Below, in pieces: positions 945 through 8,070 of a stretch of DNA of 36,995 nt (position 1 is the stretch's first letter; every line of letters begins with the position of its first letter). Origin of the DNA: Planctomycetota bacterium (GTDB lineage Bacteria > Planctomycetota > Phycisphaerae > SM23-33); assembly GCA_012729725.1 (NCBI GenBank), contig JAAYCO010000076.1, positions 1 to 36,995 of the forward strand, given 5' to 3'. A model generated the notes under the pieces. It was given only the letters and a program-made list of their open reading frames with translations. It was not told the origin of the DNA and ran no database searches. The translations under genes were made by a program, and so were the position numbers.

Positions 945-985
945 CCGCCCTTCATCCTTTGAGGCTATTACATCAGGATCTGATT

Positions 986-1672
986 ATGAATTGCTCAACC
1001 GGAATAACCGGCGTGATATTTGATATGGACGGCGTGCTGTGCGACTCGGAACGCTTCATCTGCGAGGCGGCGATCGAGATGTTCAAACGCAGGCATGGTG
1101 TGCAGGTGAGGGCGGAGGATTTTCTGCCTTTTGTCGGCAGCGGAGAGAACAGATACCTCGGCGGCGTGGCAGAGAAATACGGCGTGCAGATCAAGCTGCC
1201 GGAAGACAAGGTCTTCACGTACGAGCTTTATCTTGAGGTCATCCGCAATCGCCTTAAGGCACTGCCGGGCGTGAGCGAGTTCATATTGAAATGCCGCGCC
1301 AAAGGCATAAAGCTGGCGGTGGCGTCGGCTGCGGATACGATGAAGGTCAACGGCAACCTGGCCGAGATCGGCCTGCCGCACGAGACGTTCGACGCGGTTG
1401 TCACCGGCAGCGACGTTTCCAGGCACAAGCCGGACCCGCAATGCTTCCTGATGGCTGCCAAGAAAATCGGCATATGCCCCGCCAACTGCCTTGTCATCGA
1501 AGACGCCAACAACGGATGCAAGGCGGCGAAGGCGGCAGGGGCCATGTGCCTGGGCATAACAAGCAGTTTCGATTCCGAACAACTCGCTGCCTCGGGTGCG
1601 GACTGGACCGCAAGCGATCTGGCCCATCTGCCGGGCGATCTGGAGGCGATTCTGGCGGTGGGGGCGAAATAG
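986..1672 (+). CDS. HAD-superfamily phosphatase / beta-phosphoglucomutase-like hydrolase
   Basis: A 228-residue cytoplasmic HAD subfamily IA hydrolase. All four HAD motifs are visible. Motif I is DMDGVLCDSE at 13-22, with nucleophile D13 and acid/base D15. Motif II is Ser114 in VASAAD. Motif III is Lys148 in HKPDP. Motif IV is IEDANNG with E172 and D173. The helical cap lies between motifs I and II, as in phosphoglycolate phosphatase and beta-phosphoglucomutase. The substrate is probably a small phosphorylated sugar or acid and cannot be named from sequence. The ATG at 986 is chosen over an in-frame TTG at 959 because AGGA lies 7 bases upstream and the DxDGV motif then falls at the usual distance from the N-terminus. 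The gene stands alone behind its own promoter. A 6-bp hairpin at 1662-1678 overlaps the stop codon but has no T-run. Confidence 0.9.
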   Translation: MNCSTGITGVIFDMDGVLCDSERFICEAAIEMFKRRHGVQVRAEDFLPFVGSGENRYLGGVAEKYGVQIKLPEDKVFTYELYLEVIRNRLKALPGVSEFILKCRAKGIKLAVASAADTMKVNGNLAEIGLPHETFDAVVTGSDVSRHKPDPQCFLMAAKKIGICPANCLVIEDANNGCKAAKAAGAMCLGITSSFDSEQLAASGADWTASDLAHLPGDLEAILAVGAK

Positions 1673-1752
1673 TCGCCCGGAATGCGTCTTGTCGAATCTG
1701 GAATTTTGCGGTAATCTAGATACTTGAAACGCCAGAGGAGGCAGGGCATTTC

Positions 1753-2337
1753 GTGAATTGCAGTAGTGACATCCCGACAGGGAGGGTGGTTGTTCTGTCT
1801 TCGGACGCCCTTGCCGGCGCCGATTCATGGAGCGACCTCGGCCCTGTCGCCTGCTGCGTTCGCGTGTCCAGCGCCTATGAAGCAGTAGCGGAACTGCTGG
1901 CAGGGCCTGTGTCGGCCCTTGTTGCCGATCTTCGCCTGCTTGGCCCGCGTCACCTTCGCCTGCTGGACATCGCACGATCCAACCATGTTCGGATTTTCGG
2001 CGTTGGCGCAATCCCGCCGGGCCTGACCGTGGAAGACCTCAACGGCGTGCTGCTGGTCAGCAGGGCGGCGCTGCCGGCGGCACTGGCGGGCGTGGTCAAG
2101 CCGGCTGTGCAAGCCCCCGCGCCGTCCCAGCCCGAGCCGCCCGCGCCCCAGCCCCAGGAGCCTCAACCCAAACCCCAGGCCGGGCCGGCAAAGCCCGCAG
2201 CCGTTCCCGCACACCGGCGGCCCCTTGAGCCCAAACCCCAACCCGCTGGGCAGCAACAAGACCAGTACGCTTCTGAAAACACGCGGAATCTGCTGTCCGC
2301 GGATGAGCTGGCCGCCCTTTTGGGGGATGAGCAGTGA
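1753..2337 (+). CDS. Receiver-like protein with Pro-rich linker and C-terminal FliM-like peptide
   Basis: 194 residues; GTG start preceded by GAGGAGG (about 1735-1741). Residues 8-115 look like a response-regulator fold: alternating strands and helices, VADL with Asp59 at the usual phospho-acceptor strand, then IFGVG and LLVS strands. The N-terminal acidic pair and the conserved Lys are not evident, so it may be a pseudoreceiver. Residues about 118-170 are a Pro/Gln/Ala-rich linker. The last residues are LLSADELAALLGDEQ (180-194). This resembles the CheY-binding N-terminal peptide of FliM (consensus near ILSQxEIDALL), but here it is C-terminal. The stop overlaps the GTG of the diguanylate cyclase gene by 4 bases, so the two are translationally coupled. 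A weak promoter match lies at 1689-1717. No flagellar gene is present. The function is not known; an adaptor controlling the cyclase is my inference. Confidence 0.75.
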   Translation: MNCSSDIPTGRVVVLSSDALAGADSWSDLGPVACCVRVSSAYEAVAELLAGPVSALVADLRLLGPRHLRLLDIARSNHVRIFGVGAIPPGLTVEDLNGVLLVSRAALPAALAGVVKPAVQAPAPSQPEPPAPQPQEPQPKPQAGPAKPAAVPAHRRPLEPKPQPAGQQQDQYASENTRNLLSADELAALLGDEQ

Positions 2338-3524
2338 CTGCCGCCGACGTGCTTCTTGTAGCGGGCAAGGACGTGCAACGCGGATTTCTTGACCACGCGC
2401 CCGATGCTCGCATCCGGGCAGTGGCCGACCCGTATGACGCCCTGGGCGAAATGGCCAGGCACAACTGGCCGCTCGTGATGCTCTGGGGGCCTGGACCCGA
2501 TTTCGAAGGCTTTTGTCGCGCAGCCAGAAGACTTCAACCGGCGTCCAAGCTCGTGGGCCTGTGCCGCCCGGATGCAGAGGGGCAGATCTCCGCGCTTAAA
2601 GACTGGCCGCTGGACGATTATCTGCTCTATCCGCTGGACGGGCCGGAACTGGCGAGGATGCTTCCCAAACCCCAGCCCCAGCCGTCGAACGAGATGTCAT
2701 TGTCGGTGGATGACGTCGCAACGCTGATCGAATCAGCCCGGATGCTGCCTTCGCTGGAACTCAAGCTCGAACAACTCGTCCAGCAGCGTCTTGATGAACA
2801 TGCTGCCTGGTTCGATTCGGCTGCGTCGGTCGATCCCTCGGCCGTGCTGGTGACGATGGAATCCGAGCCGCGTAGAAAGCTGTGTCTGTCCCGGCCGATG
2901 CTGGAGACCGAAGCCGCCTTTGCCAGAGACCTTCAGATTGTTGCATCCCGCCTGGAACGTGCAGCCCAGAGATCGTCGGCGCTCCATCGCCTGGCGGTTA
3001 CGGACGACCTTACGGGCGCGTATAACCGCAGGTACTTCTTTCATCTGACCGAGCAGGTGCTCAGACGCGGCGGCAAGCACCGCGTAACGCTGCTGTTGTA
3101 CGACATCGACAATTTCAAGCAGTACAACGACGCCTACGGCCACGCCGTCGGAGATGAGATACTGCGTGAAACGGCGATGTTAATGCGGCGGACAACCCGC
3201 GCTCACGACATAGTGGCCCGGATCGGCGGCGACGAATTTGCGGTGCTGTTCTGGGACGCCCAGCCGAGGCAGGCCGGCAGCAGTCCGCCCGAGAGCGCGA
3301 TTGTGCTGGCGAATCGATTCCGCCAGGCGGTCAGCAGTCACAGATTTCCTTCGCTTGGTCCCGCGGCAGTGGGAACGCTGAGCATTTCCGGCGGGTTGGC
3401 TTCGTATCCCAAGGACGGCAGAACCTGCGCCGATTTGCTTCGCAAGGCGGATGAGGCGCTCGTTGAGGCCAAGCGAAGCGGCAAGAACTCCATCCGCATA
3501 GTGGGCAAGGGACCTATCGCTTGA
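2334..3524 (+). CDS. GGDEF diguanylate cyclase with N-terminal receiver-like domain
   Basis: 396 residues; GTG start overlapping the preceding stop (GTGA). Residues 1-115 form a degenerate receiver-like domain with no clear phospho-acceptor Asp. LSVDDVATLI at 123-132 resembles the C-terminal LSADELAALL of the upstream partner. Residues about 135-225 are helical and probably coiled. The GGDEF domain (about 224-392) has DDLTGAYNRRYF, metal-binding D257 in YDIDNF, the signature GGDEF at 298-302, and an inhibitory I-site RAHD at 289-292, five residues before it. It should therefore make cyclic di-GMP from two GTP and show product inhibition. No transmembrane segment is seen, so it is cytosolic. 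Its 3-prime end overlaps the convergent thermonuclease gene by 11 bases. Confidence 0.92.
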   Translation: MTAADVLLVAGKDVQRGFLDHAPDARIRAVADPYDALGEMARHNWPLVMLWGPGPDFEGFCRAARRLQPASKLVGLCRPDAEGQISALKDWPLDDYLLYPLDGPELARMLPKPQPQPSNEMSLSVDDVATLIESARMLPSLELKLEQLVQQRLDEHAAWFDSAASVDPSAVLVTMESEPRRKLCLSRPMLETEAAFARDLQIVASRLERAAQRSSALHRLAVTDDLTGAYNRRYFFHLTEQVLRRGGKHRVTLLLYDIDNFKQYNDAYGHAVGDEILRETAMLMRRTTRAHDIVARIGGDEFAVLFWDAQPRQAGSSPPESAIVLANRFRQAVSSHRFPSLGPAAVGTLSISGGLASYPKDGRTCADLLRKADEALVEAKRSGKNSIRIVGKGPIA

Positions 3525-4128
3525 GGTAGTCCGGCAGGTCGCTGGTCGAAACGTCTTTCCACAGTCCCACGCCCGCGGCCTTTGCCTGCACGTGCAGCCT
3601 GTGGAATTCGTCCTTGTGCGAATGCTCGAATCTGGGGTCGGCGTATCCATAGCCCTGCTCGATCAGCACCCTGTTGAGCATTCTTCCATCGGGAAGATAG
3701 ACAAACGCAAGCAGTCGGCCGTATTTGTCGCGCGTGTTTCGTTCCAGTTCGATTCGCACCATTTCGTCGGCGACAAGTTTTGTGGTGAATCGGCTGGCCT
3801 GGGGTCCGAAATGCTCAACGGGATGATCGGGTTTGACGGTCTCGGGCGTGTCCACTCCCCACAGGCGAACGGTCGTCGTACTGGAATCGCCATCGGGCGC
3901 CGCCAGAAGAATCGTGTCGCCGTCGACAACGCGAACAACATGGAACGTCTTATTGTGGTAGACGCTCCAATCGCTGCCGCGTCGTTTGCCGAAGACGCCG
4001 CCCTTGTCGAGGGTCGCCAGAATGGCGGCTGCGGCAATCGCCATCAGAAGCAGGACGGCTTTTCTGGCGATATAGCGGCTTCGCCGCGCTGAAGCGGACA
4101 TGCGCATGTTAGTGGCGCGCCTGGCCAT
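3514..4128 (-). CDS. Membrane-anchored thermonuclease (SNase-like)
   Basis: 204 residues of the staphylococcal nuclease family, which cleaves single- or double-stranded DNA and RNA using calcium. A hydrophobic segment at about 22-40 after a basic N-terminus (RRSRYIARK) indicates a signal anchor or signal peptide, so the domain acts outside the cytoplasm. The catalytic set of S. aureus nuclease is present: D71 in VVDGDT, R88 in RLWGVDTPE with D93 and E96, and R138 in DKYGRLLAFVY. The C-terminal part (LNRVLIEQGYGYADPRF) is also typical. The start is uncertain: in-frame ATGs exist at residues 1, 8 and 10, and no strong Shine-Dalgarno decides between them. It lies 12 bases downstream of lysC and is probably cotranscribed with it. 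Confidence 0.9.
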   Translation of the reverse strand: MARRATNMRMSASARRSRYIARKAVLLLMAIAAAAILATLDKGGVFGKRRGSDWSVYHNKTFHVVRVVDGDTILLAAPDGDSSTTTVRLWGVDTPETVKPDHPVEHFGPQASRFTTKLVADEMVRIELERNTRDKYGRLLAFVYLPDGRMLNRVLIEQGYGYADPRFEHSHKDEFHRLHVQAKAAGVGLWKDVSTSDLPDYLKR

Positions 4129-4140
4129 GGCTATCGCCGG

Positions 4141-5367
4141 CTACTTGCCGGCGCTCTTTTTGCCGCCGAGGTTGAACGCGTCATGCACAAGTCGAAGCGC
4201 TTCCTTGCCTTTCTCGCGGTCGATGAAGCACGAGATCTTGATCTCGCTGGTGGTGATCTTGTGAATGTTGATCTTGGCCTCGGCAAGCGCCGAGAACATT
4301 CTCTCGGCGACTCCGGTGTGAACTCTCATTCCGACGCCGACGATGCTGACCTTGGCCAGGTGGTCTTCGTAAACCACTTGGCATCCGATCTTTTTCGAGA
4401 GGCCTTCGACAACCTTCTTTGCGTCATTCAGTTCGCCCAGGTCAACGGTGAAGGAGATGTTAGCGGTTCTATCGTCGGCGATCGTCTGGACGATATCGTC
4501 GATCACGACCTTGGCCTTAGCAAGCGTGTGGAATATCTCGGCCGCGATGCCCGGGCGATTGCTGACTCCGCGAAGCGTAACGCCGGCAAGTTTATCTTTA
4601 AGGGCGGCGCCGCTGACGACAATGCGTTCCATGTCCTGCGATTCAGCCACGATCATGGTTCCTTTTCTGTTGTTATTGCTGTTGCGAACGTGAATAGCGA
4701 CGTTGTACTTCTTGGCGAACTCCACAGCCCTGTTGTGCAGGACGTTTGCGCCCAGGCTGGCCAGTTCGAGCATTTCCTCGTAGCTGATGCTGTTGATCTT
4801 GCGAGCGTTGGGCACGATGCGCGGGTCGCTGGTGAAGATGCCGTCGACGTCGGTGAAGTTTTCGCACTCGGCGCCAAGCGCGGCCGCTATCGCGACGAGG
4901 GTTACGTTGCTTCCGCCTCTGCCAAGCGTTGTAATCGCGCCGTCGCTGGTGACGCCCTGGAAGCCGGCAACCACGACGATCCTGCCCTGATCCAACTGCT
5001 CGTTGATGCGTTTGACGTTGATCGACTTGATTCTGGCTTTTGTATGAACGTCGTCGGTCAGCATGCCGATCTGGGCGGCAGTGAAGCTGATGGCGTTGAC
5101 TCCCATGTTCTCCAGCGCCATCGCCATAAGAGAGATGCTGACCTGTTCGCCGGTCGCCAGCAGTTGGTCAAGCTCGCGCTTGGGCGGATCCTTGGACACC
5201 TGGTTGGCCAGGTCCACAAGGTGGTCGGTGCTGTCGCCCATGGCCGAGACCACCATGACGACCTGCTTGCCCTTCTTATGGGCGGCGATGGCCCGCGCCG
5301 CGGCTGCACGAATCTTATCGGCAGTGGCGAGGCTGGAGCCACCGAACTTCATGACGACAATGCTCAT
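4141..5367 (-). CDS. lysC: Aspartate kinase (monofunctional)
   Basis: 408 residues. It phosphorylates L-aspartate to 4-phosphoaspartate, the first step towards lysine, threonine, methionine and diaminopimelate. KFGGSS at 7-12 is the signature ATP/aspartate loop, E74 sits in ATGEQ, and FTDVDGIFTSDPRIV follows at 171-185. Two C-terminal ACT domains (about 265-335 and 345-405) indicate feedback control, usually by lysine and/or threonine. One oddity is the segment TLGRGGSN (147-154): most characterised aspartokinases have Asp where N154 stands. The start ATG follows CAGGAGC at 8 bases. I see no lysine riboswitch in the 257-bp gap upstream. The thermonuclease gene follows 12 bases downstream on the same strand. 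Confidence 0.95.
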   Translation of the reverse strand: MSIVVMKFGGSSLATADKIRAAAARAIAAHKKGKQVVMVVSAMGDSTDHLVDLANQVSKDPPKRELDQLLATGEQVSISLMAMALENMGVNAISFTAAQIGMLTDDVHTKARIKSINVKRINEQLDQGRIVVVAGFQGVTSDGAITTLGRGGSNVTLVAIAAALGAECENFTDVDGIFTSDPRIVPNARKINSISYEEMLELASLGANVLHNRAVEFAKKYNVAIHVRNSNNNRKGTMIVAESQDMERIVVSGAALKDKLAGVTLRGVSNRPGIAAEIFHTLAKAKVVIDDIVQTIADDRTANISFTVDLGELNDAKKVVEGLSKKIGCQVVYEDHLAKVSIVGVGMRVHTGVAERMFSALAEAKINIHKITTSEIKISCFIDREKGKEALRLVHDAFNLGGKKSAGK

Positions 5368-6086: not shown

Positions 6087-6301
6087 TCGACCTTCTGAAA
6101 TACCCAATGACCCTGCCGCCTTATGGTCAGCTATGGCTGCTGCTGCCGCTGCTGGCGGCAGTGGCGGTTGTCTATAAGACTGTTCGAGCCGAAGATGTTC
6201 GAAGGATATGGTTGGAGTCGCTGCTGCTGTTCGCATACATGCTGGGCGGACTGGTGGTTCTTGGCGCCATACTCTGGGCGGTCATCAGCTTCTGGCCCTG
6301 A
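6083..6301 (+). CDS. Small two-helix membrane protein (72 aa)
   Basis: Begins at the ATGA overlap with the preceding gene and ends 14 bases before fhs. It has two predicted transmembrane helices at about 15-32 ([15 protein letters not shown]) and 47-69 ([19 protein letters not shown]), joined by a charged loop ([12 protein letters not shown]). I recognise no family. The tight coupling to the upstream membrane protein suggests the two products work together, for example as a small membrane complex. Confidence 0.7.
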
Positions 6302-6315
6302 AACGAGGAGAGAGT

Positions 6316-8066
<1,751 letters not shown>

Positions 8067-8070
<4 letters not shown>

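Follow-up and report, generated by a model that had tools for sequence, protein, structure and literature searches.

A possible two-protein signalling module of Phycisphaerae in which a pseudo-receiver adaptor may present a receiver-docking helix to a coupled diguanylate cyclase

What does a small protein with a FliM-like peptide at its end do when its gene overlaps that of a diguanylate cyclase? The question is raised by a gene pair in the window analysed here, a stretch of 36,995 nucleotides that makes up one entire contig. The genome to which it belongs measures 3.2 Mb, is 96.6% complete and has Phycisphaerae and other Planctomycetota as its named relatives. To our knowledge, the known receiver-docking peptides of the FliM/CheZ type belong either to the flagellar switch (FliM, FliY) or to CheZ, and we know of almost no experimental work on signalling in Phycisphaerae. 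The original prediction, made from the DNA letters, held that the genes of the small protein (ORF1) and the cyclase (ORF2) overlap by four bases, and this was borne out by the GTGA that joins them (Table 1). From the sequence, ORF1 is predicted to be translationally coupled to ORF2; among the class-wide loci, a four-base overlap is possible in 30 of 62 readable pairs and a one-base overlap in 4/62. Four neighbours in the window, named by reading their translations, are also listed in Table 1, and none of them looks akin to the ORF1/ORF2 pair.

Table 1. Features of the ORF1/ORF2 locus and its neighbours (positions in the window)
Feature	Position	Strand	Basis
Neighbour, HAD-type phosphatase	959..1672		translation read by eye
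Shine-Dalgarno-like AGAGGAGG, 11 bases 5' of the ORF1 GTG start	1734..1741	+	read directly
ORF1, small adaptor-like protein, 194 aa, GTG start	1753..2337	+	ORF reading, homologue searches
ORF1 residues 8-115, receiver fold without helix α4 (predicted pseudo-receiver)	1774..2097	+	AlphaFold2, Foldseek, VIA
ORF1 residues 116-179, Pro-rich low-confidence linker	2098..2289	+	pLDDT 53-79 by block, alignment A1
ORF1 residues 181-190, LSADELAALL, conserved FliM-type C-terminal helix	2293..2322	+	model, homologue conservation
GTGA four-base stop/start overlap of ORF1 and ORF2	2334..2337	+	read in sequence
ORF2, diguanylate cyclase (predicted), 396 aa, GTG start	2334..3524	+	Pfam GGDEF E 1.4e-39, 31-row alignment A2
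ORF2 residues 1-112, predicted pseudo-receiver	2334..2669	+	full β-α receiver order in model
ORF2 residues 120-190, GAF-like region (two helices, three strands)	2691..2903	+	model secondary structure
ORF2 residues 123-132, LSVDDVATLI	2700..2729	+	
ORF2 residues 191-222, long signalling helix into GGDEF	2904..2999	+	model
ORF2 residues 221-385, GGDEF domain (GGDEF motif 3225-3239)	2994..3488	+	Pfam, alignment A2
ORF2 residues 289-292, RxxD I-site	within GGDEF domain	+	invariant columns in A2
Neighbour, thermonuclease-like protein	3514..4128	-	translation read by eye
Neighbour, aspartate kinase	4141..5367	-	translation read by eye
Neighbour, formate-tetrahydrofolate ligase	6208..8070		translation read by eye

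ORF1 was modelled with AlphaFold2 from an alignment with 29 homologues. Residues 31-110 had pLDDT values mostly of 86-97, and the model showed the alternating β-α, flavodoxin-like order of a receiver with helix α4 absent. The folded part matched the PmrA receiver in Foldseek (E 3e-4) and the KdpE receiver in VIA (Z 12.2, rmsd 3.1, 107 aligned), and the structural matches from the two programs were the PmrA, KdpE and DivK receivers with Z about 12, which agrees with the receiver-like nature first proposed for the small protein. Neither Pfam, run also member by member, nor NCBIfam gave a family for ORF1. The linker that follows the fold is very variable in length among the homologues in alignment A1. 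Both proteins were mapped on a CheY reference sequence (D12/D13, D57, Y106 and K109); nine receivers of the same genome, aligned to it as a control, had kept the acidic pair, the Asp and the Lys throughout. None of 28 mapped ORF1 rows had Asp at the D12 position and the acidic pair was absent, with Asp at the D57 position in 19/28 and Lys at the K109 position in 1/28. The D57 and K109 positions were replaced in 31/31 ORF2 rows, and a Tyr at the Y106 position was kept in 26/31. The set of residues that marks a phosphorylatable receiver (acidic pair, D57 and K109) was found in neither protein, and by these alignments neither receiver is predicted to be phosphorylatable in the usual way. The two pseudo-receivers showed a weak profile relation to each other, with a probability of 76 and an E of 2e-5 for one comparison.

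The ORF2 model (31 rows, mean pLDDT 88.7) contained a complete receiver fold at residues 6-109 and the GAF-like region at 125-185. The closest whole-chain structural relatives were PleD, WspR and DgcR, whole-length matches that uphold the predicted receiver-like N-terminus. The C-terminal domain matched PF00990 (E 1.4e-39) and TIGR00254 (E 5e-43), and with GGDEF and RxxD invariant across alignment A2, ORF2 is a predicted diguanylate cyclase. GGDEF was the sole Pfam match, and no Pfam or NCBIfam family was found for the N-terminal half; residues 120-190 were called GAF-like by our own judgement of the model, a Pfam GAF match being absent. As in PleD, WspR and DgcR, a receiver-like domain feeds GGDEF, but the ORF2 receiver is predicted to be unphosphorylatable, a GAF-like region lies between the two domains, and an adaptor gene is coupled to that of the cyclase.

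The cyclase does hold LSVDDVATLI between its receiver-like and GGDEF domains, as had been predicted, and in the model this sequence forms the helix (125-134) with which the GAF-like region opens, N-capped by Ser. The further claim that the two proteins have a motif in common failed, since the loose pattern was present in 10/31 cyclases and in 9/62 partners class-wide, and the strict pattern in 1/31. In the complete genome G341, the GAF-like region is wholly absent from the cyclase. We take LSVDDVATLI to be a capped helix of the ordinary kind.

We then consider how far the pair extends. ORF1 homologues were present in 27/35 genomes of the host's family and the N-terminal half of ORF2 in 33/60 relatives. 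ORF1 adjoins ORF2 wherever the contig permits, the pairs of G016, G024 and G034 being cut by or divided between contig ends. A wider ORF1 profile matched 114/397 Phycisphaerae genomes at E<=0.001; 40 of the matches outside the family were read, and the weakest of the 114 were not all among them. This class-wide profile contained the motif, and therefore weak matches may be biased to motif bearers; within the host's family, where detection was independent of the motif, resolved ORF1 copies numbered 18 intact versus 6 lost or degenerate. A search of the phylum gave matches beyond the class in G145, G326 and G345, the last two of which were on reading ordinary response regulators. A partner with a GGDEF-type motif was found in 62/69 loci. 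Of the other seven, three belong to genus g11 and have a pseudo-receiver that stands alone, and in two (G047 and G038) the pseudo-receiver partner has a degenerate GGDEF; one locus is situated at the end of a contig, and G447 lacks a partner. The pair is kept together across families of the class Phycisphaerae, usually overlapping or adjacent; its separation in other genomes had been named as a ground against the original prediction. No che or flagellar genes were found as conserved neighbours of the pair, which lies among housekeeping genes. HIT, dgt, thymidylate-synthase-like and glycosyltransferase genes (names from reading translations) are neighbours in a subset of loci and were read as ancestral synteny.

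The small protein ends as predicted, with LSADELAALL after a Pro-rich tether: its C-terminal end is ...NLLSADELAALLGDEQ, preceded by a Pro-rich stretch, and the sequence of the C-terminal helix is LLSADELAALLGDEQ, of which residues 183-189 were modelled as helical (block pLDDT 84). Lack of conservation in homologues was the other ground named against the prediction, and the C-terminal motif L[ST]xxE[LI]xxLL was kept in 61/69 loci read in the class. Position 1 was Leu in 55/61 matches, position 2 was Ser or Thr in all 61 as the search pattern required, and position 6 was Leu or Ile. Glu stood at position 5 in 61/61 although the pattern admitted E, D and Q, and Leu at position 9 in 61/61 although four residues were admitted there; position 10 was Leu in 55/61. 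The Glu and the first Leu of LL are thus invariant across the matches, and the linker diverges freely. The strict form, L[ST]xxE[LIV]xxLL within the last 25 aa, occurred in 24 of 2,270 distinct ORFs of 100 or more aa from the loci collected in the analysis, and all 24 belong to the ORF1 family (21 in alignment A1 and three later identified as further members), compared with a chance expectation of 0.0025 among 29 from shuffled tails. The motif of the ORF1 family is far beyond chance. On the tree, motif loss took four changes among 60 scored rows versus 9.4 with shuffled labels. In L253 and L254 (family f4), an unusual acidic end (DLSEDEWSADDEDEL...) replaces the motif and the cyclase is intact. 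The last residue of the motif sits 1-27 residues from the stop, a position that would suit a localisation or proteolysis tag, the pair then being ordinary, translationally coupled regulators that dock no receiver; we consider this very improbable, however, as the FliM-type spacing is conserved across divergent proteins (12-42% identity to that of the window).

The published FliM motif is LSQxEIDxLL, and in Caulobacter FliM the Asp after Ile/Leu is important (PMC5677366). An LSQxEIDxLL-like sequence is present in ORF1, with the spacing L-S/T-x-x-E-hydrophobic-x-x-L-L of the N-terminal EIDALL peptide of FliM and FliY (PMC5677366, PMC9126983), and it varies at the Asp position, Asp following the position-6 Ile/Leu in only 17/61 motif matches. 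The ORF1 motif differs from that of FliM/FliY in being C-terminal, in usually having Leu for Ile, in its unconserved next Asp and in the lack of a C-ring domain: neither FliM middle nor FliMN_C, nor any Pfam family, was found in ORF1. In a search of the PDB with a profile of 20 tails, residues 2-17 of FliM were the second-best match with an E of 0.14, and therefore the resemblance rests on pattern and not on significance; the matches also took in unrelated helices. Leucines combined with a capping box make a generic helix, and the tail could promote activation or dimerisation by contacting the GGDEF or GAF-like part directly; it would then resemble FliM by convergence, both being capped amphipathic helices with an S/T-x-x-E box and LL. 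SiaC-SiaD, in which a cyclase is activated by a small partner that is encoded with it, is a precedent (PMC8457831), although ORF1 differs in having a receiver fold and a tethered helix. We regard direct activation as improbable, given that the peptide is kept where GGDEF is missing or degenerate and that G341, without the GAF-like region, has the most FliM-like peptide (ISQDELDALL).

A layout without a described counterpart had been claimed, and this needs correction. CheZ consists of a folded domain, a linker (169-199) and a C-terminal CheY-binding helix (199-214) (PMC7750401), and CheZ and FliM occupy the same face of CheY (PMC3774744). ORF1 likewise has a folded domain, a flexible linker and a C-terminal helix, which in CheZ holds CheY, but its folded domain is a predicted pseudo-receiver instead of a four-helix bundle and its partner is a cyclase; the four-helix bundle with the catalytic Gln was not found in ORF1, for which a receiver fold is predicted, and there was no CheZ Pfam match. 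The Cle proteins of Caulobacter, whose receiver binds the FliM peptide when c-di-GMP is bound (PMC5677366), resemble the module in their receiver folds, the FliM peptide type and the link to c-di-GMP. However, the Cle receiver binds the peptide, whereas in ORF1 the pseudo-receiver protein carries it. Each element is known singly and the combination is new; no description of the pair was found in a search mainly of open-access literature, and the pair appears undescribed. We tentatively favour, as a possibility somewhat short of probable, the reading that a pseudo-receiver adaptor presents a receiver-docking helix to its coupled cyclase in a two-protein signalling module of Phycisphaerae.

Natural variants take the module apart. 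In genus g11 (L149-L151), GGDEF is lost, and the motif-bearing ORF1 and the pseudo-receiver are kept with the same overlap under purifying selection (dN/dS about 0.2-0.4, with synonymous sites near saturation in 2/3 comparisons). In G047 (L234) and G038 (L259), GGDEF is degenerate and the motif is kept. Loss or degeneration of GGDEF was apparently separate in these three lineages, with the adaptor retained. In the clade of L038, L042, L045 and L046, and in L033, the motif is lost and the adaptor core and cyclase are kept. Thus the peptide and the cyclase can each be kept without the other, which leaves two pseudo-receivers as the common core. Since the adaptor core and the cyclase can persist when the peptide is lost, the peptide resembles an accessory that serves one more partner.

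The helix might, on the other hand, dock in trans on the pseudo-receiver of its own partner cyclase, forming a closed two-protein switch with no third receiver. Its strict co-occurrence with the partner and the joint survival of peptide and pseudo-receiver where GGDEF is truncated or degenerate are consistent with this, as is the partner Tyr at the CheY Y106 position described above, which was missing in 4/8 peptide-less versus 1/20 peptide-bearing rows (nominal Fisher p 0.015). With kinship allowed for on the class-wide tree, however, the co-variation came down to only four independent pairs (sign test p 1). The persistence of adaptor core and cyclase without the peptide argues against a closed switch. 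It is further weakened because two families (f5 and f20) keep the tail while their partner lacks the equivalent of the CheY switch Tyr, and we think docking on the partner unlikely.

A third receiver could be the CheY of flagellar chemotaxis, with ORF1 as an adaptor between it and c-di-GMP, or as a decoy or second CheY-P site competing with FliM. In the host's family, the intact motif was found in 17/25 genomes with flagellar C-ring/export matches versus 1/7 without (Fisher p 0.027, ignoring kinship). The FliM of this family is divergent, so that Pfam FliM barely detects it or does not, and its N-terminal CheY-binding peptide is degenerate (MTQENVQRLLQAL in the host's own FliM), where other Phycisphaerae have MADVLDQNEVDALLAAV. 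Yet no CheA match was found in 8/18 intact-motif genomes of the family, and no flagellar export/C-ring match in two motif-bearing genomes, G007 and G047, the latter lying outside the family and having been searched for FliM and FHIPEP; the housekeeping neighbours of the pair also speak against a chemotaxis role. Flagellar chemotaxis CheY is therefore not the general target of the tail, although it is a possible one, and the decoy reading seems to us rather improbable. The host genome encodes 33 receiver domains above the Pfam cut-off, all candidate targets. As a separate observation, the loci read for FliM are G000:C49 (L142, L144), L138, L139 and L172-L190, and the host genome (G000) has two FlhA/FHIPEP genes on different contigs (G000:C194:6220-8154 and G000:C225:23773-25728). 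Close to the latter lie FliI/FliP-like genes and one for a small SpoA protein, and we read the two genes as marking a pair of export systems, flagellar or type III-like.

Returning to a helix presented by the adaptor to its coupled cyclase, we infer a mechanism in which the two pseudo-receivers associate, the tail docks an activated receiver and the cyclase is controlled. The pairing of the ORF1 and ORF2 pseudo-receivers would replace the phosphorylation-driven receiver dimers of PleD and WspR, and the tethered helix would dock on the α4-β5-α5 face of an activated receiver elsewhere in the cell, either CheY or another response regulator. The state of the docked receiver would then alter the cyclase dimer and change c-di-GMP synthesis; where a lineage has lost GGDEF or its activity, the complex might still act as a scaffold or sink for the docked receiver. 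A wider and more doubtful proposal is that of an undescribed class-wide hub, in which the FliM/CheZ-type helix on the pseudo-receiver adaptor would link activated response regulators, not necessarily those of chemotaxis, to c-di-GMP synthesis; in several lineages the hub would persist after its cyclase is gone, serving as a scaffold that binds receivers. If true, a docking peptide on a cyclase-coupled pseudo-receiver adaptor would open a new path by which phosphorelay output reaches c-di-GMP, one found widely in the class, and the natural variants, with the peptide lost, the cyclase dead or the cyclase truncated, make the module testable.
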